A stretch of 64,000 nucleotides of DNA from an uncultured Fidelibacterota bacterium (GTDB lineage Bacteria; Fidelibacterota; Marinisomatia; Marinisomatales; TCS55). Below the pieces are notes generated by a model. The model worked only from the letters and a program-made list of their open reading frames with translations. It was not told the DNA's origin and did not search any database. The position numbers and the translations under genes were made by a program. Below, in pieces: positions 48,401 through 64,000 of this stretch. The stretch spans positions 1 to 64,000 of the forward strand of contig CAJXWT010000002.1 in NCBI GenBank assembly GCA_913062595.1, written 5' to 3'. Position 1 is the stretch's first letter; each line of letters starts with the position of its first letter.

Positions 48401-48644
48401 CCAGTAAGCCATCCAGATCCCCTGATTGGTGTAAGGCAAATAAATCGTCAAATCCACCGATCGAATTTTCATTTATTAATATTTGCGGTACGGTGTGACC
48501 ACCTGTGAGATCATATAAGTCATCCCTGGTCATTCCAAGTTCGTCAATATTTAACTCTTCATATGACACGCCCTTATTATTTAGCAATATTTTGGCATTG
48601 CGACAGTACGGACACCAATTGGTCATATATATTTTTACACTCAT
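48387..48644 (-). CDS. Glutaredoxin (GrxC type)
   Basis: The 85-aa protein starts MSVKIYMTNWCPYCRNAKIL with the dithiol CPYC site (C11, C14), then the cis-Pro loop HTVPQIL and GGFDDL for glutathione binding. It reduces disulfides in the cytoplasm. ATG 48644 overlaps the C25 peptidase stop by four bases. No export signal is present, so it stands out in a run of exported proteins. Confidence 0.92.
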   Translation of the reverse strand: MSVKIYMTNWCPYCRNAKILLNNKGVSYEELNIDELGMTRDDLYDLTGGHTVPQILINENSIGGFDDLFALHQSGDLDGLLDVSD

Positions 48645-51600
48645 TTGATCAATAATACCTTTTGAATTTGGTTGAAATTTAATGCTTCCATGATCACAAA
48701 ATATGTCCCGGAAGCGACAGGTTGTCCGAATCTGTTCGTGCCACTCCATTGAAGAGCATAGGTTCCGGCATTCTTTTGTTCGTGGAGTAATACGTTCACT
48801 TCCCTCCCCAGAATATCATAAACGGTCATTCTTACATCTGAAGCCGTTGGCAATTGATAACGTATGGTTGTTACGGGGTTGAATGGGTTCGGATAGGCTG
48901 GCATTAATTGAAAACCTGTAGGCAGATGTTCATCTTCCGTTCCCAAAGGTGCCACGTAGTTAGCCGGTGCTTCTGTTGTGAAACGAATGGCTCGTTCATG
49001 GGCAAGTTCTGCTGCACCGGGAGCGTATTCATTGTTAAAAACATACTGAATACCTTCATTTTTGGTGTGGTCTTCTATGCCCACTGTAGCATAATTCTTA
49101 TCCGCGTCAATATCAGCGATCTCTAAATAGTGGAATTCGATCACACCATCCCCGGATTCTGTTGGCATGGCAGTTTGGTCGTATAAATGGATAGCGAATG
49201 TTTCTTCTGTTACTTCATCAAATCCATTTAAAGCTCGGGACCATTCAATGATAAAACGGCCATTTTCTTCATCATTTTTTGTATAAACACGAATAGAGTC
49301 TTCATTGATCACTTCCAAGTCATCCCAGAATGGTGCCAGGATTGCTTTGGGTCCCAATGCCATTGGAATAGTATAGTTATAAAAATAATCAATATCGCAT
49401 AATTCAAACGAAACCCAGCCGTTGGAGCTGATGGTCATTTCATCATAGGTTCTACCGAAATACTGGAATTCAAAAGGGAGCTCGACATTCACGTGATCAT
49501 CATCATCGAGTTTGTATTCAGTGCCGCCGCTGCCGTTATAACCTGGATCCAACTCTACCCAGTCAAATAAAGGCATTTGAGTGTAATTAGCGTCAGTGTT
49601 ATCATAGGCCCAATAGCCATACCATGTATTAGAGATTGGGTCTTCTGTCGTTTGCGAGGCAATATTTATCACATGGTCACCCTCATAAATTGTAACAGTA
49701 TCTTGATAGATAAGGACGTTCAAAGTAAGATCACTTCCAATTGAGGCATCATCTATACTTCCAGTATGATCATCTAATTCAATTGCATTAGATGAAAATG
49801 ATTCAATATCGAATATCGTAGAACTATCTATATATGAAAAACTTATAGAATCACTTATACCATCTATGACACAGTTTAGATGTTCGAAAAGTCCGGAAGA
49901 ATAATTATGATATGTTAGTTCAGGAATAAAATTAGAATTTGGTTCTAGATCATCTGGACCAATATTTACTTCTATTTGAGGTTTTATGACAGGAATAAAT
50001 AATGTATAATCAGCAAAATCAGTATTTATATACAATGAAATATAATCGAAATCTTTGGATATTGATCTTATAGTAAATGGTGATGCAGGAATCACAACTT
50101 CATTATTATCAGATTCAGGAATGACTATATCAGCATTTATAACCTGACAATGACTATTCATATCATTACTTATATCAGCATTTGATGTATTCAAAGAAGT
50201 ATGCCCTGAATTTTTGAAGATTGGATATACATCAACTGTTTCACCCGTTTCTAGCACACCATTTCCATTAACGTCATTTTGTAGTTCATACCCAATAAGC
50301 ATCAATTCAATATCAAGTGATTCGGTTGCGATTTCTTCATGGTATTGTGTATAGCCATTTTTATTTATATAGATACCAACAGTAGAAATACCAAACAATG
50401 ACACTTGTGTATGGAAGTAACCTAAATGATCAGATACACCTTTTGCTAATAAACTATCATCAGCCATGATCGAAACAACTGCGTTTACAATCGGTTCTTC
50501 ATTCAGATCTTTTACACCAATTGTAATATCTCCATCATGTCTATAGAAGGTATTTGTTGACACTGAAAATTCATGAGGTTCATTCAGATAGATGGAAACG
50601 GAAGGATCCCCCAAAATGTTATATACGTGAAAATAGAATTCCTGGACTTCTTCCGGTCCGTCGAGGTTTGGGAATTCGCGAGTTAGACCTAATAATCCTG
50701 CATTGAGTGCTGGTCCTAATTCCACAATACCATCATCCAGCATGGCATCAAACATATAGGCGTTAATAACATTGTTATACTTTGTGCTGGTATGCAGATC
50801 AGATGGACCCACGATAGCTACTCCCCCTTTAGGATTTGAAGGTGTTCCGGCCCGGGTCAACGCTTCGCCTAAACACGGATCTACATTGTTGGCAAAATCG
50901 TTGGAGTTACACACAAAACTGGTGAAGACCGGCGTCATCCAACCATTGTTAAGCCCAGCCACATCACTGACATGAAATTCAGGATAATGCCAGCCGTTGG
51001 CGTCGCCCCAGCCGCGGTAATTCACGATGCCGACACCGCTGTTAATATAATTCTGGATCAGTGATGCACCTTGCTGTGTGGGTGGATAAAAAACGGTGTC
51101 CACGGATGTATAGCCTTCATCAAGCAACAGATCACGAACCCAATAGGATGTCCATTTCGGTGTAATGGGAATGGGAACAGTATTACTATAGTTTCCGGCT
51201 ACTACAAGTGCCTTGCCCAACCAATCAGGATTTGTTGCTAAAGGCTGCCGGTGATAATTGATGGTCTTGCGGATCATAACCACCAATTCAGAAACTGAAT
51301 CCACGGAAAAACGGCCGATAAACACGTCCGGGAAAAAATCATCGCCCAGCAAATGGGTGTACTTTTGATCGGTAACGTCATTCTCAGGGCCGTAATAAAA
51401 AGACGGCATTGCTGCTACACCATCCACATCACCAATTAATAGTACATATTCTAACATTGGGTCAGCCATTAATGTTGCTGCGATGGCATCTTTAATCTCA
51501 GCTGCAGTGGCCCCTATTTCACCGAGAGTTTTTACGAAAACGTCGAAACCCTGTGATTTTTTAAATGAAACAAGCTCATCCAGGTGGTTTACCATATTAT

Positions 51601-51799
51601 CAGGTGTAATGATCAAGTAAGATCCGCGCTGGGGGTTTAGTTGGCTCAAGGGTATATTGTATGTTTCAGAAATAAGATGCCGATACGCCATGGGGATCGG
51701 TCCACTTAAGATATCCGCACGATCTTTACACCGAAATGAACCTTCGTTAGCAAATAGAAGGGGCATTGATAATAAAATTACAGTTTTAATAAAACGCAT
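48641..51799 (-). CDS. Exported C25 (gingipain-type) peptidase-like protein with type IX-like C-terminal domain
   Basis: 1052 aa, signal peptide MRFIKTVILLSMPLLFANEG. The C25 domain is residues about 55-390: SYLIITPDNM, then YVLLIGDVDG, GDDFFPDVFIGRFS, VNYRGWGDANGW and PVFTSFVCNSNDF, ending HVYNILGDPSVSIY. The catalytic Cys is C297, but the Gly-His-Gly of gingipains reads Gly-Trp264-Gly here. Carboxypeptidase-regulatory-like domain follows (about 400-480), then Ig-like repeats, a 240-aa module (about 715-945) repeated in the right-edge protein, and the YPNPFNPVTTIRYQL sorting domain. Overlaps the M14 gene by 22 bases. Confidence 0.87.
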   Translation of the reverse strand: MRFIKTVILLSMPLLFANEGSFRCKDRADILSGPIPMAYRHLISETYNIPLSQLNPQRGSYLIITPDNMVNHLDELVSFKKSQGFDVFVKTLGEIGATAAEIKDAIAATLMADPMLEYVLLIGDVDGVAAMPSFYYGPENDVTDQKYTHLLGDDFFPDVFIGRFSVDSVSELVVMIRKTINYHRQPLATNPDWLGKALVVAGNYSNTVPIPITPKWTSYWVRDLLLDEGYTSVDTVFYPPTQQGASLIQNYINSGVGIVNYRGWGDANGWHYPEFHVSDVAGLNNGWMTPVFTSFVCNSNDFANNVDPCLGEALTRAGTPSNPKGGVAIVGPSDLHTSTKYNNVINAYMFDAMLDDGIVELGPALNAGLLGLTREFPNLDGPEEVQEFYFHVYNILGDPSVSIYLNEPHEFSVSTNTFYRHDGDITIGVKDLNEEPIVNAVVSIMADDSLLAKGVSDHLGYFHTQVSLFGISTVGIYINKNGYTQYHEEIATESLDIELMLIGYELQNDVNGNGVLETGETVDVYPIFKNSGHTSLNTSNADISNDMNSHCQVINADIVIPESDNNEVVIPASPFTIRSISKDFDYISLYINTDFADYTLFIPVIKPQIEVNIGPDDLEPNSNFIPELTYHNYSSGLFEHLNCVIDGISDSISFSYIDSSTIFDIESFSSNAIELDDHTGSIDDASIGSDLTLNVLIYQDTVTIYEGDHVINIASQTTEDPISNTWYGYWAYDNTDANYTQMPLFDWVELDPGYNGSGGTEYKLDDDDHVNVELPFEFQYFGRTYDEMTISSNGWVSFELCDIDYFYNYTIPMALGPKAILAPFWDDLEVINEDSIRVYTKNDEENGRFIIEWSRALNGFDEVTEETFAIHLYDQTAMPTESGDGVIEFHYLEIADIDADKNYATVGIEDHTKNEGIQYVFNNEYAPGAAELAHERAIRFTTEAPANYVAPLGTEDEHLPTGFQLMPAYPNPFNPVTTIRYQLPTASDVRMTVYDILGREVNVLLHEQKNAGTYALQWSGTNRFGQPVASGTYFVIMEALNFNQIQKVLLIK

Positions 51800-54126
51800 T
51801 TTCTTATGAATGTTCGTTGCTCTGATATAATCTTAACAAAATACACACCGGAACTGGTTGTGCCATCAATATTATCCAGCAAATTATATCGCCATGGTTG
51901 TCGCTGTCGATATTGCGGCTGAATTTTTTCAAAGTATACTTCCTGGCCGAGTAGATTGTATACCAGGATAGTTACTGGTTGACTGTTATTGATTAGATCT
52001 ATGCTGATCATGCCCGTTGATGGATTTGGATAAATATTAGTTACTGAAACGCCTTCAGATTTTTGTCCTATGCCTGGCCCCTCTGTTACGGTACCTAATG
52101 TGAAATCATTTCCAGCATATAACTCCATAGAATTTATATTACATCCCCTATAATTAATGGTTTCATCTCTATTCACTTCGAGTTTTACTTTAATATTGTT
52201 AAATCCATTTGTATCCGCAATCATCAACCTATGCCGTATGGGTTCTGACCAATGGTGGCCTGACAACGACATTTCAGCGATGGTATTATCTGTCGAATCC
52301 ATTAGGATAATGCTGAGCGAATCATGATCCCATTCAAATTCCCACTGATGATTGATCCGCAGTGCGACTACGTTCATTTCTTGAGGGAATACATATAGAT
52401 CCGTTTCCAGGGTAAATATAGAATCCAAGGAGTCGGCATTTGCGTAAAATAATCCGTCCTGGGTGCGAATCGAGTTATCAAATACCCAAGGCCCTATAAT
52501 TGTGCTAAATGAAGAACTATCAACAACGGTTGCACCATAGATATATTGTATCCATGATGGCTGGGGCATATTTACGTCCAGTTCCAGGTCTCCAGCAACG
52601 GTAATAGTACGCCGCCACGGAATGAGGTAATCCCAGTAAATCGTGAATTCCCACTCTCCCTCTGGAATTGTTAGACTGTGAATGTGGTTAAAATCCATTT
52701 CTATAGTGTCAGAAATGCCTTCATTAGCAATAACTAAAAATGGATTTTCATCCAAAACGACTGGAGACTGAAAGGAAGCAATGGTTATATCAACATTATG
52801 TAAGGGAAGCGGGACCAGCGTTACGTTTTGCGTCGAAGGTGAACTGGCGTTAGCAGTAACGAGGAAATTCAAGGGGTAATAACCAGATTTTTCGTACCTA
52901 ACCGAATAGGTGCCTGGTTCCACGATTCGGCGGTAACGGCCAAATTCATCGCTCTTGCGGGGTTTCTGAACACCACCATGTAGTTCATCGATTGTAATTA
53001 TAGCATCTTTAAGGGGCATTCCAGTGCCACCATCAGTAACTATACCTGTGATCTGGGATGCATCTGTATTATATCCAATTGAACGGTCCATGAGGAAAAG
53101 CATCGCTGGCATCAAACGATCAATAGTATCCTCAATCAAAGCGCTGTCCGGCTGCAAATTCGATGTACCGCATTCAATTAGATACTGAAAACAACCAGTA
53201 GCGTGGTAAAACCAGTCATGTGCTTTTCCATTTCTACTTTGCCCATATAAAGATTGATAAGTATCCGTGCTATTTTCTTTGAGAATAAGTTCTGCAATTT
53301 GATCTCCGATGCCCTTAATAGTAGTATTGTCTGGCGTCTTTTTATCCCCATCCCAACGCCATGAATTATAAACTTTTTCTGATAAACTTCCTGATCGAGA
53401 ACTATGCCAAGCAATCGAAAAAACATAATCATTTTCCAGGGCCAAGTCTCGCACAGCCCTTATTTCAGATTCAGACCAGGGTGTTGTCCCCCGATAATAA
53501 TCATAATGCGCAGCATAATCACTGGGGTCAGGTTCCATGAACGTATCACCAAAAACCCAATTAAAATCAAAATTCCGGTTTAAATCAACGCCATCAATGT
53601 CCTCACCAATGGCTGGATTGTAATCAAAATAATTATTTGGCCATGGCCCTTCCGGCGAAAAATCATTTTTATTCTTCCTGAAGCTCACATCAAGTCCATC
53701 ATGAACAACATCCAATCCCTCTGGATTAAGGGTCGGAATTATCCAGGTTTCAAGATTCTGTTTTATTATGGCCATATGCTGTACTTCTGCTGGGGGCGGA
53801 TCAAGCATTTCAGTGATCAGTTTTAATACGGCCTCAACGCCCAGAATTTCCTCAGCATGTAATTGACCGATAAATAATACCCGTGGTTCATCTTCCTTAA
53901 TTTCAGCATTATCTGATATCTTCACCGCAAAAATGGGTAACTGTTCTTGGCTACTATACCCTATAGTATCAACCCGGTATATTGAATTAAAATCAGATAT
54001 CTGGTTGAGGGAATCAAGAAATTCCCGGATTTCGGGAAATGTATGATAGCGTGAATCCAATGCCTGCGCATCAAGTAAAACAATACAAGTGCACATGAAT
54101 ACTACTGTTTTACCTAGAGCTTTCAT
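51778..54126 (-). CDS. Exported M14 zinc carboxypeptidase with type IX-like C-terminal domain
   Basis: 782 aa with signal peptide (KTVVFMCTCIVLLDAQA). The M14 catalytic site is complete: zinc ligands H90, E93 (QLHAEE) and H241 (IAWHSS), substrate Arg184 in DLNRNF, and catalytic Glu318 in LIECG. A regulatory-like beta domain follows (about 350-430), then beta-rich parts and a C-terminal sorting domain (IYPNPSTGMISIDL, VYNLLGQEVYFEKI). It would remove C-terminal residues from peptides at the surface; M14-fold enzymes that cut poly-gamma-glutamate are also known. It comes 21 bases after the 1009-aa gene. Confidence 0.9.
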   Translation of the reverse strand: MKALGKTVVFMCTCIVLLDAQALDSRYHTFPEIREFLDSLNQISDFNSIYRVDTIGYSSQEQLPIFAVKISDNAEIKEDEPRVLFIGQLHAEEILGVEAVLKLITEMLDPPPAEVQHMAIIKQNLETWIIPTLNPEGLDVVHDGLDVSFRKNKNDFSPEGPWPNNYFDYNPAIGEDIDGVDLNRNFDFNWVFGDTFMEPDPSDYAAHYDYYRGTTPWSESEIRAVRDLALENDYVFSIAWHSSRSGSLSEKVYNSWRWDGDKKTPDNTTIKGIGDQIAELILKENSTDTYQSLYGQSRNGKAHDWFYHATGCFQYLIECGTSNLQPDSALIEDTIDRLMPAMLFLMDRSIGYNTDASQITGIVTDGGTGMPLKDAIITIDELHGGVQKPRKSDEFGRYRRIVEPGTYSVRYEKSGYYPLNFLVTANASSPSTQNVTLVPLPLHNVDITIASFQSPVVLDENPFLVIANEGISDTIEMDFNHIHSLTIPEGEWEFTIYWDYLIPWRRTITVAGDLELDVNMPQPSWIQYIYGATVVDSSSFSTIIGPWVFDNSIRTQDGLFYANADSLDSIFTLETDLYVFPQEMNVVALRINHQWEFEWDHDSLSIILMDSTDNTIAEMSLSGHHWSEPIRHRLMIADTNGFNNIKVKLEVNRDETINYRGCNINSMELYAGNDFTLGTVTEGPGIGQKSEGVSVTNIYPNPSTGMISIDLINNSQPVTILVYNLLGQEVYFEKIQPQYRQRQPWRYNLLDNIDGTTSSGVYFVKIISEQRTFIRKCVLLKL

Positions 54127-54147: not shown

Positions 54148-57100
54148 TTACTTTATGTAGGTAATTTTTCTAATTGATTTGAATTCACCTGCAGTCACAT
54201 TTATCAAATAAAGGCCACTTGATACATCCTGCTGCAACAGATCTTTTCCATTCCAAGTAAATGAATGGACGCCTTGACTAAGAGGCAAAAGTTTTTCTTG
54301 ATAAACAATCTGTCCCAGCATATTGAAAATAGCAATATCTACTGGCTGCAATGATGGGATAGCAATATCTATCTTTACTGTTCCATTGAACGGATTTGGA
54401 TAAGCATTCCCTATATAATATTGGTCGGGCATTAGGGATGATGGATCAGCAGTCATTGCATCAGCTACCTGAATCGCCTGACCATAGAGGTTAACCAGAT
54501 CAGCCTTTCCCGAACTGCGCATATCCTCCCAGTGCACAAACCATTTATTATCTATTTCACTTCCATCGGTGTACAGAAGTGAAATCTGTGGTTTCTTTTG
54601 ATCATGGTATTCTTGACATAGAATAACACCCGCTGTAGAATATTTTAGGCCATCTGCATAATGCACAACCTGCGCATAAATATCTAGGCCACCGGCCAAT
54701 ACTGGATCTTCATTCTCAAATCCTCTCTCATCTTCCCAAACAATAAGGTAATAGCCTTCATTTACCCGTCTGACTGCTGGTGACTGCTGGTATAGATCAT
54801 TATCACAAATAAAAATATTATCACCATAAAGACTATTATTGGACAAGTCTAGAAACTGACCAACGATATCTAGATCGTTTCCATTTTGAAAATCCTCCCA
54901 TACTACAAAGGCCGTCTGACTCAGTTCATCTACAGCAAGTTCTAAGTTGATTTGGTCATTCTCTGCAGTTGTCAAAAGTAATCCACCTGTCCACTGCAAC
55001 GATCCATCCCAGTGAATTATATTCGCCTTTATATTTTTATTAAAATTATAAAATTCCTCCCAAGCTACAAGTATTCCATCAGCAGAGCCACTGATACTGC
55101 CACTGAGTTTTTCCGGGTCCCCTGTTGATGATAGCGTATAACCATCACTAGGCCAGCTATCTGCTATTTGACCGGCCAGGGTAAATTTCTGATATTTAAG
55201 AGAGCCAGCACCCCAAATATCGTCCACCCATACTATTATGAAATCCCCATCAGGTGTTGAATAAATGCCCTCAACATAATTATCCACCCAAAAACCATCT
55301 ATTAAGGTCACACCAGCAGAATCAAATTGAGGTAGACCATCCAAATCGTAACGTTGATAGAACAGATCAAAATCTATTTCATCGCGGATCTCTGACCAAA
55401 CAACACCGATTCCATCTGGCGTCTCAAATAAATGGACCTTTCGCTGGTCAGCAGGACCTTGATAAACTATCTGACCACCACTGGGCCATTGCATCTGATA
55501 TTCAAGATCAAACTTGTTAATACGAACTAACTTTGCTCCACTTGAGGCATCAAAAGCAGCTGTAAAAAGAAAATCATGTGCTAATAATGTTACCGGTTCA
55601 TTTTCCAACTGAAATGTATAACTGTCAAATTCAGTTAACATTAAGCCATTTTGTAATCCCGGGTCTGGGCCGCTACCATCAAGAGTTCTGCCAAAAACTT
55701 TTTTTCCATCCCGAGCATCAATCCAAGTTAGGATAACATCATCACCTGAATACATGGGTTTAGTGTATTCTATATCACCATCCAGTCCGGGCATAGCTAT
55801 TAGACCATTTGTATCAAAATTCGCTGTTGAGCCATCAGTTTTCTGTACTTTCAGATCAATACTGCCATTTCCCTGATCCGAGAATACCACGAACGCACCA
55901 TTACCATCATCAACTAACACATTAGGCATAGATTGATAACCGGTCGCATCAGAAATGAATAACGCGTCATCCAAAAGTAACGTGCCATCCGACTCTATCT
56001 TCTGATACATGATATCCACATTAGGGAATGTACCACGCTCCCAATAGACGAAAACTTCTCCTGAGGATCCTGCTGAAAACCGGGCATGGTGGTCATCACC
56101 ACTTGGGTCTAACTGTACACCATTGTCATCCCAAACTATGCCACCGCTATCTGTAATTCGCTGAAAGAAATGATTGCCTTCCGTGGGATCTGATCTATAA
56201 TCGATCCACTGGATGAAAATATCCCCTAAACTATTCCGCTTAACCCTGGGGCTTACTTTCGGAGAATCATAATTACACAGTTGAACTGCGTCAGTAAATA
56301 ATAACCCGTTACTAGTCAAAATATTGTAGAAAATATCGGTGTTTTCTGTGCCGGATTGCCAAATAATAAATGAAGTGTCGTTCGTCATATATGTTGTTCT
56401 AGGTGCTGTCTCGAGATCAGCAGTGGCGGCGACCGCTAAACCATCATCAGTAAAGATTTTATCCATATCCATGTTCAGTTTTTGGCAGTAAATATCATTT
56501 CCAGATCCACTGCGTGTATCAGACCAGATAATCGTGGCTTCGTTATTACCAGCATATTCAAGACTTTTGGCGCCTTGAGTACCATTCATTTCAATAATGG
56601 CTATCCCACTGGCCGGAGCAATAACCTGGTGATCCGAAGAAACATGGGTTCCATAAATATCATCATCGAGGAAATTTCGTTTATCCTGCCAGGCCACATA
56701 GACTCCACCCAAGCTGTCCGTACACATGTTAATACTTAAATGCCTACCATCTATCCGTGCCAGTGCCACTCCATCATTATCCATAAGTCGATTTCCTTCA
56801 TTATCAACATGCTGAATGAAAATGTCACCTTCTTCATCAAACCGATAGTCTACCCAGGCAATGAATGCACCACCATTACCATCGGTAATTGCAACAGGAT
56901 CCTCTTGCCGGCCGGGCAAATTAGTAACATCGCTACCCCCCGTGCCCCACAATAAGGACCCAGAGGAATCTACTTTTTGAGCAAATACATTTCGGCTGCC
57001 GTAGCGTGTATCTGACCAAACGAAAATTATACTTCCGGGCTCACCAGGACACACCGTCCGCTGCCATTCAATGTGGACCCCTTGTCGAATTGGAAGGCCA

Positions 57101-57177
57101 TTGGAATCCCAAGACATATCTTGCGCTTTTAAAATAGTAATAATCATAAGGGCTAGATAAATTTTTCTCATCTTCAT
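54148..57177 (-). CDS. Exported protein with about 15 WxDxR repeats and type IX-like C-terminal domain
   Basis: 1009 aa. Signal peptide [17 protein letters not shown]. Nearly the whole mature chain is built from about 15 units of 50-60 residues with the core hydrophobic-x-W-x-D-x-R-x-G, then D-I/L-x-x-Q-x-x-D-x-x-G (for example [20 protein letters not shown] and [20 protein letters not shown]), which suggests one or two beta-propellers. It ends with [16 protein letters not shown] and [13 protein letters not shown], the sorting domain. Not a known enzyme; probably a surface binding or adhesion protein. Starts three bases after the LVIVD lipoprotein gene. Confidence 0.8.
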
Positions 57178-57180
57178 TCC

Positions 57181-58176
57181 TTATTCATCAATTTCAAATA
57201 TTTGTAATCCTTCGCGCGTGGCAGCAAAAAGATAACCACCTGAAAATTCTGCATGGTAGACATAACCAATATCATGAATTCCCCTGGCACTGATGGTTGT
57301 ATTACCATCAGGTTCATAGAGGGCAAGTCCATTACTGGCACATGACAATGCCAATTGATTGTTATTCACAGCTATGTGTGTAACAAATAGATCGTTTGCA
57401 AACTGAATTTTCCCTTCTGATTGAGCAGAAAAACCAGTCGCCATTCTAAAGGCACCGGCATCTTCACAAGCTACATAAAATTCACCACCATTAAGCATTG
57501 TGATCGCCCTTGCATTTCCTTCTAGATCAATGTGGTAACTACTGGTAATGATCCCGTTTTCAAGATGAAATGCTTCAATGCCAAGCTGATCTAGCGTTAA
57601 CACGATCTCATTTTCATACATATCAATCCCATTGGGGTTGCCGACACTGGCTATTTCATCTCCAGCTGTATTGAACCAGAGCCCAAAACTAGAGTCATAT
57701 TCAAAGGTACTGATTTTCAAACCATCGTCATTATCAGCTGCATACATTGTGAACGAATTAATGCTATTTGTAACCACCCGGAATTCCTTGGTCTGTTCGC
57801 TGGAGAACTGCCCTTGCACAGACGCTGTGTTACCACTGGATAAATCGATATGTAAGGGACGCTCGTTACTCTCTAAAGCAAACAATTGTTTAATAGAGGA
57901 TACATATGAGACCTGTGTGATCTCCTTGTTTACACCTAATTCTGCAAGTGATTTTTTCCACACTAAGTTTGGTGCTGTTATAATACCTATATCCCACAAC
58001 TGTACACCTCCCTGCCCAGCAGCAACAAAAACAGAATCGCCAGATATGTATACATCGCGACAATAACCTTCGGTTTCAATATGTACGACCTCATTTAGCT
58101 TCCACAAATTCTCTGAATTGGGTTCAATACAGCTGAAAATTGTAGAAACAATTAATAGATTTAAGTAGTGTTTCAT
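57181..58176 (-). CDS. LVIVD-repeat lipoprotein, about 331 aa
   Basis: Starts at ATG 58176: MKHYLNLLIVSTIFSC with a lipobox Cys at 16, then EPNSENLWKL and a propeller of LVIVD-like units (GVQLWDIGIITAPNLVW, GIEAFHLENGIITSSYHI, GLQIFEIDE). LVIVD proteins are non-enzymatic propellers at the bacterial surface or in the periplasm. It follows the outer-membrane barrel gene by seven bases and is likely part of the same transcript as pgsBCW. A frame open to 58242 would enter the barrel gene. Confidence 0.75.
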   Translation of the reverse strand: MKHYLNLLIVSTIFSCIEPNSENLWKLNEVVHIETEGYCRDVYISGDSVFVAAGQGGVQLWDIGIITAPNLVWKKSLAELGVNKEITQVSYVSSIKQLFALESNERPLHIDLSSGNTASVQGQFSSEQTKEFRVVTNSINSFTMYAADNDDGLKISTFEYDSSFGLWFNTAGDEIASVGNPNGIDMYENEIVLTLDQLGIEAFHLENGIITSSYHIDLEGNARAITMLNGGEFYVACEDAGAFRMATGFSAQSEGKIQFANDLFVTHIAVNNNQLALSCASNGLALYEPDGNTTISARGIHDIGYVYHAEFSGGYLFAATREGLQIFEIDE

Positions 58177-58183
58177 TCTAATA

Positions 58184-59224
58184 TTAATAACGGTCATAGA
58201 GCATCTTCCACTCAATAGAAATCCAGGCATGTATCTGGTCAAATGATTTTAATTCAGAGACCCAGTCATAATTAGAATCAGTAAATCTATTTCGAAATCG
58301 GATCGTGCAACTTATCATCAGATTTTCTTTCACATTCTTTTCGCCCCAAATGTCAAATTTAGTTTCCCTGTGGCTTCGACCACTATGAAGGGGATCACCA
58401 ATATCCTCTACTTCATACTGGCGAAAATCAGTCCTAAGTGAAAAGCCCACTACTTCAAAACCAAGCATCCCCTGATCATAACTCAACGGAAGATATAATT
58501 CCGTATGCCTATAGGACCGGTCCAGATCACTTGATTTGGCACCCTTACCAAAAGTAATATTATCAGCAATTCCATATACTCCTTCCAGCGAAATCGTACC
58601 AAAGTCACGAAATTTTTTGCTTACCTTTAAAGTTGTCGTGACAATATCAGAATCAAACTCTGTAAAGGACCGATCGTAATATCGCTGTGTATAGCTAACG
58701 GATCCAGTAACCCATAGTCGCAATTTTATCGGATGAGATAATAATAGACGTTGCTCACGGTCCGTAAAACTACAGGCAAATAATTGATTAACAGTAATAT
58801 CTAAATCTTTGTAGTGGCGCATGTAATAGTTATCCAAATGTCTGAGCATATATTCTAATCGCCGGTATGCACCCCAATGGTAGGACACCTTTACATATCC
58901 GCTCCAATACTGGCGATGTTTATATTGGATATAGTTGGAAAGATTGCTTTTAGAAAAAAATTGAATTTGCTTTTCCCTATCACCTAGTTGAATCTTCTTA
59001 AGACCGCTCAAGGAAAAACGAACATAATGGGAATCAAATGTCTTAGTACCGCCCAAAATAGTTTGATTCAACGCAGCATCATCCTTCTCAATAGGAGATA
59101 ATCGCAGTACATTATTGTCATAGCCGTTTGTAAAACCTAGTGTCCATTTCACTGGTGATCTTAAATAGTCGGACCAACTCTGGCCCCAGAGGATGGATAA
59201 CAAAATGATGATTATGAATCTCAT
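58184..59224 (-). CDS. Predicted outer-membrane beta-barrel protein next to poly-gamma-glutamate genes, 346 aa
   Basis: Signal peptide MRFIIIILLSILWGQSWS. The rest alternates polar and hydrophobic residues with many aromatic ends (for example WTLGFTNGYDNN, VTGSVSYTQRYYDRSF and TTTLKVSKKFRDFGTISLEG), the pattern of a barrel of perhaps 14-18 strands. The C-terminus is AWISIEWKMLYDRY, aromatic-ending. No family recognised. It overlaps the duplicated periplasmic protein gene by four bases (ATGA). Placed after pgsBCW, it is a candidate for the outer-membrane exit of the polymer (inference). Confidence 0.65.
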   Translation of the reverse strand: MRFIIIILLSILWGQSWSDYLRSPVKWTLGFTNGYDNNVLRLSPIEKDDAALNQTILGGTKTFDSHYVRFSLSGLKKIQLGDREKQIQFFSKSNLSNYIQYKHRQYWSGYVKVSYHWGAYRRLEYMLRHLDNYYMRHYKDLDITVNQLFACSFTDREQRLLLSHPIKLRLWVTGSVSYTQRYYDRSFTEFDSDIVTTTLKVSKKFRDFGTISLEGVYGIADNITFGKGAKSSDLDRSYRHTELYLPLSYDQGMLGFEVVGFSLRTDFRQYEVEDIGDPLHSGRSHRETKFDIWGEKNVKENLMISCTIRFRNRFTDSNYDWVSELKSFDQIHAWISIEWKMLYDRY

Positions 59225-60096
59225 TTGTATTCTTGGAAGCGGGTTAAAACACTTCTTTCCTTTTCGACAAGCTCAACTGAAACAACTTGTTCCCCGGCAG
59301 ATATTATTACCTCACATGTTCGCCATTTACCTGGTACTTTATCGGGCTGGTCTTTAACCGTTGAATCTGAGGACCTTTCTGTGGACATGTGATACGTTCC
59401 CAAAACCTTCCTTCCACTTTTTACGCGGATACGAAAACTTTCTTCCGCACCCATTTCTGAATCAAACAATAGACGGGATAAAATGCGCAGGGTTTTGGGT
59501 CCATCTATATTCAATTGCAATGGTCGGCCATGGATTAATTCATAATAGGATATATTCTTCCCTGATACTACAACTGTCCGGTTAGCTTGAAAAACCATGG
59601 GCTGAAGTTCATGCATATTGTTGGGTGATGTTTTAAATCCTTTTTTAATAACGCGTAATAATACAGGGTATTTCTGGTCTGCATTAGCAGACATGGTAAG
59701 AGTATGATCTCCATCCTTGATATTAATGAAATAATTTCCAGAATAGGTGTAATAATGGCTGGGGTGCTGTACCGACCGGATGCTTTTCTGTAATTTATAG
59801 CGATGATTGATTTTTATAGGTTCTTCGCCATCGACCACCAATTGATATGAAAATGGTTGACTTTTTTTAGACTTTTCGGGGGATGGATAGCGGGTGATTA
59901 GTTCGATTCGAGCAGGTCCATTTACTTGATATATGAGAGGATCCTCTCGCATGATAGTATACATTCTACGCTTGTCGGCAATTTTCAATATTTCTTTTTC
60001 TTCACCACCGATGGTTGGTTTGAGGAGTTCAGCAGAAAGGGCCGAATATCCTGTAAATAATAAAAATAGGATTCTAGATAACACTGTCTGGTTCAT
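59221..60096 (-). CDS. Exported protein with a duplicated beta-sandwich unit, 291 aa
   Basis: Signal peptide about 1-22 (LSRILFLLFTGYSALSAE). The mature chain is two copies of a unit of about 100 residues: unit 1 about 45-150 and unit 2 about 184-286. Matching parts are LIYQVNGPARIELITR and LQLNIDGPKTLRILSR, then FSYQLVVDGEEPIK and FRIRVKSGRKVLG, then GDHTLTMSAN and GEQVVSVELV. No family recognised. It overlaps pgsW by 23 bases and the barrel gene by four, so production is tied to both. Probably periplasmic. Confidence 0.7.
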   Translation of the reverse strand: MNQTVLSRILFLLFTGYSALSAELLKPTIGGEEKEILKIADKRRMYTIMREDPLIYQVNGPARIELITRYPSPEKSKKSQPFSYQLVVDGEEPIKINHRYKLQKSIRSVQHPSHYYTYSGNYFINIKDGDHTLTMSANADQKYPVLLRVIKKGFKTSPNNMHELQPMVFQANRTVVVSGKNISYYELIHGRPLQLNIDGPKTLRILSRLLFDSEMGAEESFRIRVKSGRKVLGTYHMSTERSSDSTVKDQPDKVPGKWRTCEVIISAGEQVVSVELVEKERSVLTRFQEYK

Positions 60097-61204
60097 GATC
60101 CATCATTCGTTGTTTAATTTGCTGATGGCTCCTCCAGCCTACTCCAAAGACCATACCAGAGACCAGTAAAAAGCTCAACATGGTTACCGTAAGGCTATAT
60201 TTTTCTACGGCATAAAGGGATCCTTTACCAATCTCCGGTAATGGAATTGGTGCGAAGGCCATTCCTAATTCTTCCGTTAAATTTTGGATATTCAATACAT
60301 GGATAAGTGGAATATTCCGTTTGATGAACTTGACCACTGCCCCATCGATTCCACCACTACGAGAAATTGCTTCAATATCCTTTCTATAGACAATACCTGG
60401 CGGCAATAATCGTAAATTAAAACTAGTACCTAAACTGGCCACACCACCACCTACATTCACAACTGATTTATAATTTCGATAACCAAAATGATCCATTCGT
60501 TTTTGGATATTATCTTTAAGTCCATCACCTGTGATTAAAGGTAAACCATGTTCTGAAATGTTGTTTCTTATCAACTCTCGACCTTTGGGACTCAATAAAC
60601 GACCTTGGTCATTACGGCCACCAATTGAAGCAGCAATGGATCGGATTGAAATAAGACCTTCATCGAACAATAGCTTCTCCATGTCCAACCAGGTCATGTC
60701 CGGATCATTGGCTCCCCATTGCGAAGCACCAATGGAGGTAATCACAATTGGATGAATGTCCAGGGCATCACAAGCAATGAGCATGGCCATATTGGCACCT
60801 GGCATGGAACCTGTCAACATGACCGCAATAGTATCACCGCTAGTCAATCCAGCTTTGGTTAATAGTTCAACCATAGCAGCTGAAAAATTTGGATCTAAGG
60901 TGGTGAGTTTTGCGTCCAGGTCGCCTTCGTCCGTAGTTATCAAGCTGAATTGGGTTCCTACCAAGGCTGTTTCATTGGGATCATTTTCAATATCCACAAA
61001 CACACCTTTCTCCATACGAATGTCTTTTAGCATAGCCATGGCTTGTTTCATTTGTATTGCTGCTTTAACCTTCATGTCATAAGTACTGGAAATGATCACT
61101 TCCCTGGAGAAAAATGCTACGGCAAACGCAACAATCGAAACAAGTGCCATGATAATGAGAATCGAAGTTTTTTGTATGACCGGAATGAAAGGCTTATCAT
61201 ACAT
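60074..61204 (-). CDS. pgsW: Poly-gamma-glutamate system protein PgsW
   Basis: 376 aa with an N-terminal membrane helix (TSILIIMALVSIVAFAVAFF) and a second near the C-terminus (SLTVTMLSFLLVSGMVFGVG), so a large middle domain (about 35-335) sits outside the cytoplasm. That middle region (TIAVMLTGSMPGANMAMLIA, TSIGASQWGANDPDMTWLD, NVGGGVASLGTSFNLRLLPPG) matches the proteins annotated PgsW beside pgsBC. It replaces CapA/PgsAA of Bacillus; its reaction is not known. Eight-base overlap with pgsC. Confidence 0.85.
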   Translation of the reverse strand: MYDKPFIPVIQKTSILIIMALVSIVAFAVAFFSREVIISSTYDMKVKAAIQMKQAMAMLKDIRMEKGVFVDIENDPNETALVGTQFSLITTDEGDLDAKLTTLDPNFSAAMVELLTKAGLTSGDTIAVMLTGSMPGANMAMLIACDALDIHPIVITSIGASQWGANDPDMTWLDMEKLLFDEGLISIRSIAASIGGRNDQGRLLSPKGRELIRNNISEHGLPLITGDGLKDNIQKRMDHFGYRNYKSVVNVGGGVASLGTSFNLRLLPPGIVYRKDIEAISRSGGIDGAVVKFIKRNIPLIHVLNIQNLTEELGMAFAPIPLPEIGKGSLYAVEKYSLTVTMLSFLLVSGMVFGVGWRSHQQIKQRMMDHEPDSVI

Positions 61205-61640
61205 CTAACTGTCCTCCTGATAAAAGCATGACCAACAGCTTAACTAAAACTGCTGTAATGATCACAACTGAAATAGTTCTCGTCACTCCCTGACGATCCA
61301 TCCAACTGGCAATAAGTCCGGGAATAATATTACCAATCACCGCATAGGAAAATGTGTCCACAGGCGAAAAGAATAGATTGCGGGAAATAAACCCCACCAT
61401 AAATCCCAGCAATAGTGTCAGAACTAAACGGCGCTTACCATAAATAAACATGAAATTGCTTAAGAGTTTGACAATTCCAATAACAATGATCGCTGCAATA
61501 AACGTCATTAAGACCTGGTCTGGCTGATGTAAATGCAGTGCGATGTAGCCAGGCACAATGACACCCCCGGCTGTTACACCTAGTGCCTCAGAAAGAATAA
61601 GACTAAATGCAATTCCAAGTCCTAGAGTGATCTCAACCAT
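61197..61640 (-). CDS. pgsC: Poly-gamma-glutamate synthesis protein PgsC (CapC)
   Basis: The 147-aa inner-membrane protein has about four to five helices and the CapC opening LGLGIAFSLILSEALGVTAGG followed by VPGYIALHL, and FMVGFISRNLFFSP later. With PgsB it forms the membrane synthase of poly-gamma-glutamate. Both ends overlap the neighbouring pgs genes by eight bases, giving coupled production in near-equal amounts. Confidence 0.92.
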   Translation of the reverse strand: MVEITLGLGIAFSLILSEALGVTAGGVIVPGYIALHLHQPDQVLMTFIAAIIVIGIVKLLSNFMFIYGKRRLVLTLLLGFMVGFISRNLFFSPVDTFSYAVIGNIIPGLIASWMDRQGVTRTISVVIITAVLVKLLVMLLSGGQLDV

Positions 61641-62814
61641 CCGCCTTGAACTCCATAAGTTTTTCGATCAAATCTTGACCAAATCCAACCTGGTTCCCGA
61701 TGGCGAACAGAAGTGAATCCGCTGGCAGTTTTTTAAACAAATCTATAGAAGATCCCATTGGTTTGGTGTCTTGTAAAATATCCGTATGTGTTTGGGGTGA
61801 ATGATATTTAATGTGTTTCACCATAGCATCCACTTTCTGCCCCCGTATGATGCTCCGATCTGGTTTGATATCTTCATAGATTAATTGCAGCAATTGCCGT
61901 GTTCGGCTACGCCGATCCTCACGACAATTAAGATAAATGCAGGTATATCCTTCCAAAGGATAGCGGCGCTCCACGAAATTCCAGATCTGTAATGTAGAGA
62001 CTGGATCATTGGCTGCCATGGAATTGACAAACAAAATCGGACCATTACCAAAATCGAGTTTATTCACTACCAGAGCACCAAGATCCGGCTTAACCTTTTT
62101 CATGCCGGCAAGTGCAATTTCTGTCTTTACGCCTACTGCATTGCAAACGTCTAGAGCCACGGCCACATTTTGGGGATGTTCCAGATAGAAAAAATCAGCC
62201 AAATCTTCTTCACTAATTCTCTGTTCATCAGCAATACGTAACTCGGATTTGCGGTATTCAGCAACAGGCGCAATAGTATTTACCATGGCATTTTCTCCCA
62301 AAACCACTTTTCCATTATAGGGTACAGAATTGCCCAATGATTTTCTTACATCATCAAGTGTTGGCCCCATTTCTTCCAAATGATCAGGTCGAGCGTTTGT
62401 AATAACGCCAATGTGGGATTTTATCATTTGCTGTTCTGAAATCCATTGATATTCAGGCTGTACCGCCATGCATTCCATCACGACAGCATCCGGTTTTTCC
62501 TTGGCAAAAAAACGCATCAACCTGATCTGTTCTCCTATTGAAGCTGAACGCAGTCTATGGATGATCCTGTCTTTACCTTCCGCATCTATAATCCGCGGTG
62601 CTGTACCCGTCGTTTTGGCAAAGGTCCGTAAGCCACCAGCCCTCAAACCAGCAGCAATGAGCCGCGTAACACTGGATTTTCCACGCGTACCATTCACATG
62701 GATCCGCAATGGAATTGCACCAATTATACGTCTATGGTTAGATGCCTCAACATAGCCAACAATCAGTAGGATCAGAACTACCGTTCCAAGTAGGACAAGG
62801 GGCGATATGATCAT
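61633..62814 (-). CDS. pgsB: Poly-gamma-glutamate synthase PgsB (CapB)
   Basis: PgsB is a Mur-ligase-like amide ligase that activates and joins glutamates through their gamma-carboxyl groups. The 393-aa protein has an N-terminal membrane helix (VLLGTVVLILLIVGYV) and the P-loop VNGTRGKSS (residues 40-48), then AVQPEYQ and TNARPDHLEEMG, both typical of CapB. It is the first of the pgs genes and starts six bases after the exported dockerin-repeat protein's stop. All key motifs are intact. Confidence 0.95.
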   Translation of the reverse strand: MIISPLVLLGTVVLILLIVGYVEASNHRRIIGAIPLRIHVNGTRGKSSVTRLIAAGLRAGGLRTFAKTTGTAPRIIDAEGKDRIIHRLRSASIGEQIRLMRFFAKEKPDAVVMECMAVQPEYQWISEQQMIKSHIGVITNARPDHLEEMGPTLDDVRKSLGNSVPYNGKVVLGENAMVNTIAPVAEYRKSELRIADEQRISEEDLADFFYLEHPQNVAVALDVCNAVGVKTEIALAGMKKVKPDLGALVVNKLDFGNGPILFVNSMAANDPVSTLQIWNFVERRYPLEGYTCIYLNCREDRRSRTRQLLQLIYEDIKPDRSIIRGQKVDAMVKHIKYHSPQTHTDILQDTKPMGSSIDLFKKLPADSLLFAIGNQVGFGQDLIEKLMEFKADG

Positions 62815-62820
62815 GGGAAG

Positions 62821-64000
62821 TTAAAATCCCATTATTTCCCGGACAATACTGATCATGTCCAGAAAATTGATGATTTCATCCGCATTCACATCAGCAAGGT
62901 ACGGGTTTAAACTTCCCGTATTACCCGCCTGAACGAAATCAACAAGGGTCAGTACATCAATGATATTTAAAAATCCATCCTGATTTATATCACCACGTTG
63001 GAGAATATTGGAACCACGCGTTGTAAAGAGTATAGCGGTTGAATCTTGAAGTGGCATAGCAGCCACGGGATAATCATTATTGAAAGTATATTCAAGACCT
63101 ACAGTTTCCGTATGGTCTTCCAATCCTACAGAACAATAATTCCCATGGACCTGTCCCCAGCCAAAATTACCAGTTGATGTATTATTGAAATCCGCAAATT
63201 GGATTAAGATTTCACCATCGCCTGTAGGCGTAAAATAATGCTGTGCATCGTACAGAATTACCTGAAAAGTTTCTAGGCTATTATTATCAAACGTTCTTAA
63301 ACGAGACCATTCAATTATGAATTGATTGTTTTCTTCATCATACCATTTATAAACGCGCCCTCCACTAGAAGTAGTCATAAGGTCATCCCAAAATACAGCT
63401 ATCATTGGTGAAGGACCACCTGGTCCTGGTAAGTGATAATTTCTGAACGACTGCATAGATGTACTGCCCATTGAAACCCAACCGTTACTGGATACGCTAA
63501 TTTGATCATAATCAATTCCATAAAACTTGAATGTGAAGGGCAGGCTGACCGTGGTAACATCATCCTGATTATCTCCATAATCGCTTAGTGGAAGTTGTGT
63601 ACCTGGACCGTTATAAAGAGGATCAATCTCAATCCAATTAAAATATGGTGCATTTGAGTACAGGATATCGCCGCTATCATAAGCGTAGTACCCATACGCG
63701 TCGGGTCCCAGGGGATCATTCACATCCTTAATACCGATTTGAAAAGGAATACTTAAACTGGTTGACAATCCAGTGGTTGATTCCAGATCAATTAATAGAT
63801 CCACCCTTGTCCCGGGAATGACATCTTCAGCTGCTGAAACTTCAAAACGATCCGTATTATTGGTAGACATACCATCCGCTAATATCACTGGCCAATAACC
63901 TTGATCATCTAATATTTCTATCCCAGAAAAATTTGAATAAAGCCTTCCTACCACACTAGTAGCTATTACAGACCCATTATTAAGCAATTCAATTTCTAAT
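62821..64000 (-). CDS. Exported protein, C-terminal part, with dockerin-like ending (runs off the right edge)
   Basis: The frame is open to the edge (393 codons here), reading LEIELLNNGSVIATSVVG at the edge, so the N-terminus is missing. Residues about 95-320 of the visible part are a module (YGYYAYDSGD, DPLYNGPG, SSNGWVSMGS, AVFWDDL, IIEWSRL, GLEDHTE) that matches the one before the sorting domain of the C25 protein at 48.6-51.8 kb. The end is two dockerin-type calcium loops (DINQDGFLNIID and DVNADEIINFLD) in place of a type IX-like domain. It is probably another large C25-like or surface protein. Confidence 0.75.
   Translation of the reverse strand, partial: LEIELLNNGSVIATSVVGRLYSNFSGIEILDDQGYWPVILADGMSTNNTDRFEVSAAEDVIPGTRVDLLIDLESTTGLSTSLSIPFQIGIKDVNDPLGPDAYGYYAYDSGDILYSNAPYFNWIEIDPLYNGPGTQLPLSDYGDNQDDVTTVSLPFTFKFYGIDYDQISVSSNGWVSMGSTSMQSFRNYHLPGPGGPSPMIAVFWDDLMTTSSGGRVYKWYDEENNQFIIEWSRLRTFDNNSLETFQVILYDAQHYFTPTGDGEILIQFADFNNTSTGNFGWGQVHGNYCSVGLEDHTETVGLEYTFNNDYPVAAMPLQDSTAILFTTRGSNILQRGDINQDGFLNIIDVLTLVDFVQAGNTGSLNPYLADVNADEIINFLDMISIVREIMGF

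Follow-up and report, generated by a model that had tools for sequence, protein, structure and literature searches.

A pgsBCW locus followed by three conserved envelope genes

The window analysed here is a stretch of 64,000 nucleotides at the start of contig CAJXWT010000002.1, from an uncultured bacterium of Candidatus Neomarinimicrobiota (Fidelibacterota), and it contains a candidate locus for the synthesis and export of poly-γ-glutamate (PGA) in cells with two membranes. On the minus strand, from position 62814 to 57181, the genes pgsB, pgsC and pgsW are followed in order by genes coding for a duplicated exported protein of 291 amino acids (aa), a predicted β-barrel of 346 aa, referred to below as P291 and P346, and a lipoprotein. 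A preliminary description of this DNA had read the six genes as a PGA locus with its own periplasmic and outer-membrane partners. The spacing that it gave is exact: consecutive genes overlap by 8 (pgsB/pgsC), 8 (pgsC/pgsW), 23 (pgsW/P291) and 4 bases (P291/P346), and a 7-base gap precedes the lipoprotein gene. All six genes lie where it had placed them, but the real unit is larger and extends from 48641 to ~66420 of the contig, as the co-directional run comprises ten genes, crosses the end of the window and includes proteins exported by the type IX secretion system (T9SS) (Table 1). The data are based on metagenome-assembled genomes.

The first two gene products were identified with TIGR04012 and TIGR04011, the curated NCBIfam equivalogs for PgsB and PgsC. 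PgsB scored 410 bits (E = 8e-123; cut-off 222.7), also matched Mur_ligase_M (PF08245) and carries the P-loop GTRGKSS, and PgsC scored 123.1 bits against a cut-off of 96.45 and matched PF14102 (E = 1e-30). PgsW matched TIGR04332 (gamma_Glu_sys) with 296.9 bits against a cut-off of 100; it had no Pfam match, and comparison of its profile with PDB sequences returned chance matches only. Hydropathy peaks at residues 5-40 and 336-357 mark N- and C-terminal hydrophobic segments, and the central domain of PgsW is probably periplasmic. PF09587, which represents the classical PgsA/CapA, was absent from the source genome, the same search being positive in 7 of 14 control genomes; the locus falls outside the classical PgsBCA type, in which a PF09587 protein is encoded with pgsBC.

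P291, a proposed periplasmic adaptor, and P346, a predicted outer-membrane barrel

Neither P291 nor P346 matched anything in Pfam, NCBIfam, PHROGs or PDB sequences, profile searches of the PDB included. The N-terminus of P291 is a signal peptide that can be read directly from the sequence. Its duplication is real, the two halves aligning as profiles with an hhalign probability of 94% (E about 1e-7 to 2e-8), and AlphaFold2 predicted two β domains with a predicted local distance difference test score (pLDDT) of 87. Foldseek placed these domains in the jelly-roll or carbohydrate-binding module (CBM)-like class; because the whole-chain match to tandem CBMs had template modelling scores (TM-scores) of only 0.2-0.4, it was used for the domain class alone and not as a sign of sugar binding. 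With a net charge of +12, the window copy is the second most basic per residue among the 42 window proteins, and P291 is net positive in all members checked, from +7 to +23 in 25 proteins of the phylum and from +3 to +32 in 21 proteins from across the Fibrobacteres-Chlorobi-Bacteroidetes (FCB) group. A basic, duplicated periplasmic protein encoded beside the synthase of a polyanion would fit an adaptor that handles the polymer.

P346 has an N-terminus that looks cleavable on reading the sequence and a C-terminal aromatic residue (Y). The proposed barrel held up on modelling, AlphaFold2 with the family alignment predicting 14 strands with a mean pLDDT of 81.6. When the model was compared with the PDB by Foldseek, the 14-strand porins CymA and OmpG came at the top (TM-score up to 0.54 by query and 0.65 by target), followed by larger barrels including AlgE. 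P346 thus appears to share the 14-strand outer-membrane barrel fold of CymA and OmpG, but it differs from them in sequence: the structural alignments show 9-12% identity, and its profile matched nothing among PDB sequences. Successive residues of a strand point in turn to a face that is 62% hydrophobic and to a polar face for which this figure is 28%, and 26 of the positions conserved at 90% or more in the phylum set face the lumen (polar) compared with 3 that face the lipid (hydrophobic). The even number of amphipathic strands in the model, the predicted signal peptide and the C-terminal aromatic residue are those expected of an outer-membrane β-barrel. The net charge predicted for the lumen, which is suggestive only, ranges from +4 to +15 in 24 of 24 phylum members.

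P291 and P346 occur almost only beside pgsBCW

The link to PGA would have been due to chance if the P291 and P346 families occurred mostly away from pgsBC, as the preliminary description had pointed out; both were found almost only beside pgsBCW. P291 was present in 26 of 61 relatives, and the fetched loci place it between pgsW and P346 except at contig ends. Among 245 genomes of the phylum, PgsC exceeded its cut-off in 98, PgsW was present in 100, P291 in 94 (omitting one spurious weak match) and P346 in 97. P291 immediately follows PgsW at 92 places in these genomes, and nearly all of the others are contig ends or divergent loci. The shared presence and absence with PgsW gave a Fisher P of ~1e-58 for P291 and for P346 each, which is not a strict probability because the genomes are related. 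Distance-matrix correlations among the five proteins were 0.85-0.94 and partial correlations 0.16 to 0.40 (P291-P346, P291-PgsW and P346-PgsW); the high values come mostly from shared inheritance and were therefore not taken as proof of contact. Co-occurrence is near-obligate, and we regard a functional linkage of P291 and P346 with pgsBCW as near certain.

When 84,980 species were scanned with a PgsW alignment, 205 loci were confirmed, the best 80 of which were kept; none of the 80 bears the name of Leptospira, Fusobacterium or Francisella. These 80 loci span Bacteroidales and other Bacteroidota, Ignavibacteria/Melioribacter/Chlorobi, Cloacimonadota, KSB1, Electryonea, TA06 and Neomarinimicrobiota. 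Among those with sufficient contig left, P291 came next in 71 of 73 loci, and for P346 the count was 56 of 62. The order is kept in 52 of the 54 loci in which all five genes are complete, with spacings below 350 bases; an overlap of 23 bases between pgsW and P291 is seen again in 17 loci. Of 34 whole genomes searched outside the phylum, 32 have P291 and 33 have P346. Both are single-copy apart from an isolated extra P291 in Electryonea, and with few exceptions they sit at the pgs locus. The module is spread over the FCB group and is not specific to the source lineage.

The window lipoprotein carries the lipobox STIFSC. On the LVIVD repeat profile PF08309, the type to which it had earlier been assigned, the window copy reached 11.2 bits, below the cut-off of 20.2, and homologues in the same slot scored 84, 76 and 20.3 bits. 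A lipoprotein homologue directly follows P346 in 42 of 53 testable loci, making it a conserved, though not universal, sixth gene of the module.

A candidate route for poly-γ-glutamate across the outer membrane

In the export of alginate (AlgK/AlgE), cellulose (BcsC) and poly-N-acetylglucosamine (PgaA), a periplasmic adaptor and an outer-membrane barrel stand beside an inner-membrane synthase. The pgs module would likewise combine synthase, adaptor and barrel, in keeping with the AlgE match of P346. Unlike these systems, however, it has no tetratricopeptide repeat protein, its barrel would have 14 strands compared with 16-18, its adaptor would consist of duplicated jelly rolls, and its cargo would be a γ-peptide and not a polysaccharide; by Pfam, NCBIfam and PDB-sequence searches, P291 and P346 do not appear to be homologous to AlgK/AlgE, BcsC or PgaA. 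We propose that PgsB, together with PgsC and PgsW, would polymerise glutamate and thread the chain across the inner membrane, that the two basic jelly-roll domains of P291 would take up and guide the polyanion in the periplasm, and that the 14-strand barrel of P346, with its charged lumen, would be the exit through the outer membrane. The putative propeller lipoprotein and the T9SS-exported proteins resembling C25 peptidases could act in assembly, anchoring or retention at the exit or surface. We consider it likely that this is a diderm export-and-synthesis locus for PGA or a closely related γ-glutamyl polymer, with P291 as adaptor and P346 as exit. PGA as the cargo seems to us highly probable, and the conduit role of P291 and P346, for which we infer the direction of transport and the physical contact, is probable.

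The operon opens with PgsB and PgsC equivalogs, as do the PgsBCA(E)/CapBCA(E)(D) systems of single-membrane Bacillus, but here PgsW replaces PgsA in a genome without PF09587, and two extra envelope genes are present for the second membrane. A 'poly-gamma-glutamate system protein' is also annotated for Francisella capBCA and for TIGR04332 loci of other diderms (PMC5362203); unlike the module, these loci have no P291 or P346 partner in the published descriptions that were found. PGA around a Cloacimonadota species was reported by 4′,6-diamidino-2-phenylindole (DAPI) staining and proposed to aid aggregation and syntrophy (PMC13082233), and this report supports PGA as the product because Cloacimonadota carry the module. 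The accounts found of PGA in diderms, including Cloacimonadota, cover only the inner-membrane capBCA (cap/pgs) genes (PMC13082233, PMC8542988), and no description of PgsW or of a PGA barrel was found in the open-licence literature; a prior description elsewhere is possible. For the passage of PGA through the diderm outer membrane, P291 and P346, which are without database description, provide a concrete candidate exit that can be deleted and that occurs in many uncultured lineages as well as some named ones, so that export is now testable. If our assignment is true, the synthase-adaptor-barrel logic of polysaccharide export would extend to a γ-linked polypeptide, and the genes would mark cells coated with PGA in oceans, sediments and digesters.

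Several observations weigh against this assignment. Homology of PgsB and PgsC does not guarantee the identity of the polymer, and no capsule role was shown for Francisella capBCA (PMC4688374). Within the phylum, three divergent pgsBCW loci (L139, L140 and L141) lack both P291 and P346, and loci of Flavobacteriia retain P291 without a P346 homologue. The predicted lumen charge of P346 ranges from 0 to +15 FCB-wide, going down to 0 in some Ignavibacteria, and the charge of the whole protein was dropped as evidence because its conservation does not extend beyond the phylum (median -2.5 outside it). Since the charge varies beyond the phylum, anion selectivity is not established family-wide.

It is unlikely, in our view, that the cargo is a related but different γ-linked polymer, or a glutamate-decorated conjugate, still leaving by P291 and P346. 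The Francisella locus, of a similar general kind, would agree with such a cargo, as would the lack of classical PgsA in TIGR04332-type loci, the absence of PF09587 from the source genome and a MurI-like gene that, on reading the sequence, adjoins pgsB in one divergent locus; PgsB and PgsC nevertheless exceed their equivalog cut-offs, and the staining around Cloacimonadota (PMC13082233) argues for PGA itself. Slightly less probable again is that the polymer exits elsewhere, P346 being a diffusion porin or a surface anchor for the finished polymer and P291 a surface or periplasmic binder. Such roles are suggested by the nearest folds of P346, CymA and OmpG, which are passive channels, by the resemblance of the P291 domains to CBMs and other jelly rolls, and by the Flavobacteriia, which do without P346. 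However, an accessory porin would need less than the near-obligate link with the synthase that many phyla show, and the conserved part of the locus appears to encode no other outer-membrane exit. The presence of T9SS cargo in the cluster would also agree with a general clustering of envelope genes, P291 and P346 serving another envelope process such as T9SS, but the two proteins track PgsW within one phylum (by the Fisher test above), whereas C25 proteins are present in 29 of 29 genomes tested; this explanation is largely refuted and strikes us as very improbable.

Secreted proteins flanking the locus

The 1009-aa T9SS protein starts 3 bases after the lipoprotein gene, and this downstream position is conserved only in Neomarinimicrobiota. 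The M14 zinc carboxypeptidase is a candidate processing enzyme that could trim or release the polymer.

Table 1. Genes of the co-directional run, with the evidence for each (coordinates in the window unless stated).
Feature	Position	Strand	Evidence
pgsB, poly-γ-glutamate synthase (amide ligase)	61633..62814	(-)	TIGR04012, PF08245, P-loop GTRGKSS
pgsC, membrane subunit	61197..61640	(-)	TIGR04011, PF14102
pgsW	60074..61204	(-)	TIGR04332, hydropathy
P291, 291 aa, proposed periplasmic adaptor	59221..60096	(-)	AlphaFold2, homologous halves, adjacency, charge
P346, 346 aa, proposed exit channel	58184..59224	(-)	AlphaFold2, Foldseek, strand facing, adjacency
Lipoprotein, putative LVIVD-type β-propeller repeats	57181..58176	(-)	Lipobox STIFSC, conserved position, PF08309 in homologues
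1009-aa T9SS-sorted secreted protein	54148..57177	(-)	Por_Secre_tail, conserved position
T9SS-sorted M14 zinc carboxypeptidase	51778..54126	(-)	PF00246 (115 bits), Por_Secre_tail, conserved position
C25-peptidase-like protein, NYRGW at catalytic-His motif	48641..51799	(-)	PF01364 (204 bits)
Second C25-like protein, 3′ part	62821..64000, on to ~66420 of contig	(-)	1199 aa, NYRGY, dockerin C-terminus

The second C25-like protein ends 6 bases before pgsB, and two of the three C25 proteins of the source genome flank the pgs locus. Of the 32 loci whose 7-kb flanks are complete, 26 carry a C25-like protein, compared to ~5% expected by chance. In the pgs-linked proteins that could be aligned (n = 53; loci L059-L138), the catalytic His is replaced in 53 of 53 (NYRG[YWEF]) and the Cys is kept, whereas 17 of 21 comparison C25 proteins have the His, and three of the four without it are also near a pgs locus. 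Judged by these residues, the pgs-linked proteins would lack the His-Cys dyad of an active C25 peptidase, and they probably form a distinct inactivated subfamily across FCB phyla; we can only guess that they are used for binding or anchoring. Identity of the linked proteins with PorU, the T9SS sortase (NF033707), was rejected, four of them scoring 22.9 to 111.2 bits against a cut-off of 420. An FCB polymer-surface machine, in which PGA would leave through P291 and P346 and be captured or capped by the His-less T9SS-exported C25-like proteins, is a tentative idea that we hold to be rather doubtful; if it were true, protein secretion and polymer secretion would be wired together.

Variants of the locus

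Several loci depart from the arrangement found in the window. The neighbours of L139, L140 and L141, read from the sequence and unprofiled, are aspartoacylase/M14-like, N-formylglutamate-amidohydrolase-like or MurI-like genes, and these loci may perhaps belong to another PGA pathway, distinct from the first, within this phylum; one genome (G047) has one canonical and one divergent pgs locus. In Bacteroidales (L063:11323-13704, L072 and L068), the module is followed by a conserved multi-spanning membrane protein of ~370 aa and a lipoprotein of ~290-418 aa; the L063 copies had no NCBIfam match. In Flavobacteriia (L132:9006-10551, L134 and L137), the P346 slot is taken by a small lipoprotein together with a different exported protein of ~285-300 aa, a possible replacement for the barrel. 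Finally, in one streamlined family (G173-G175; L143:3288-4673), PgsW is longer (461 aa), P291 was undetected and P346 comes directly next.

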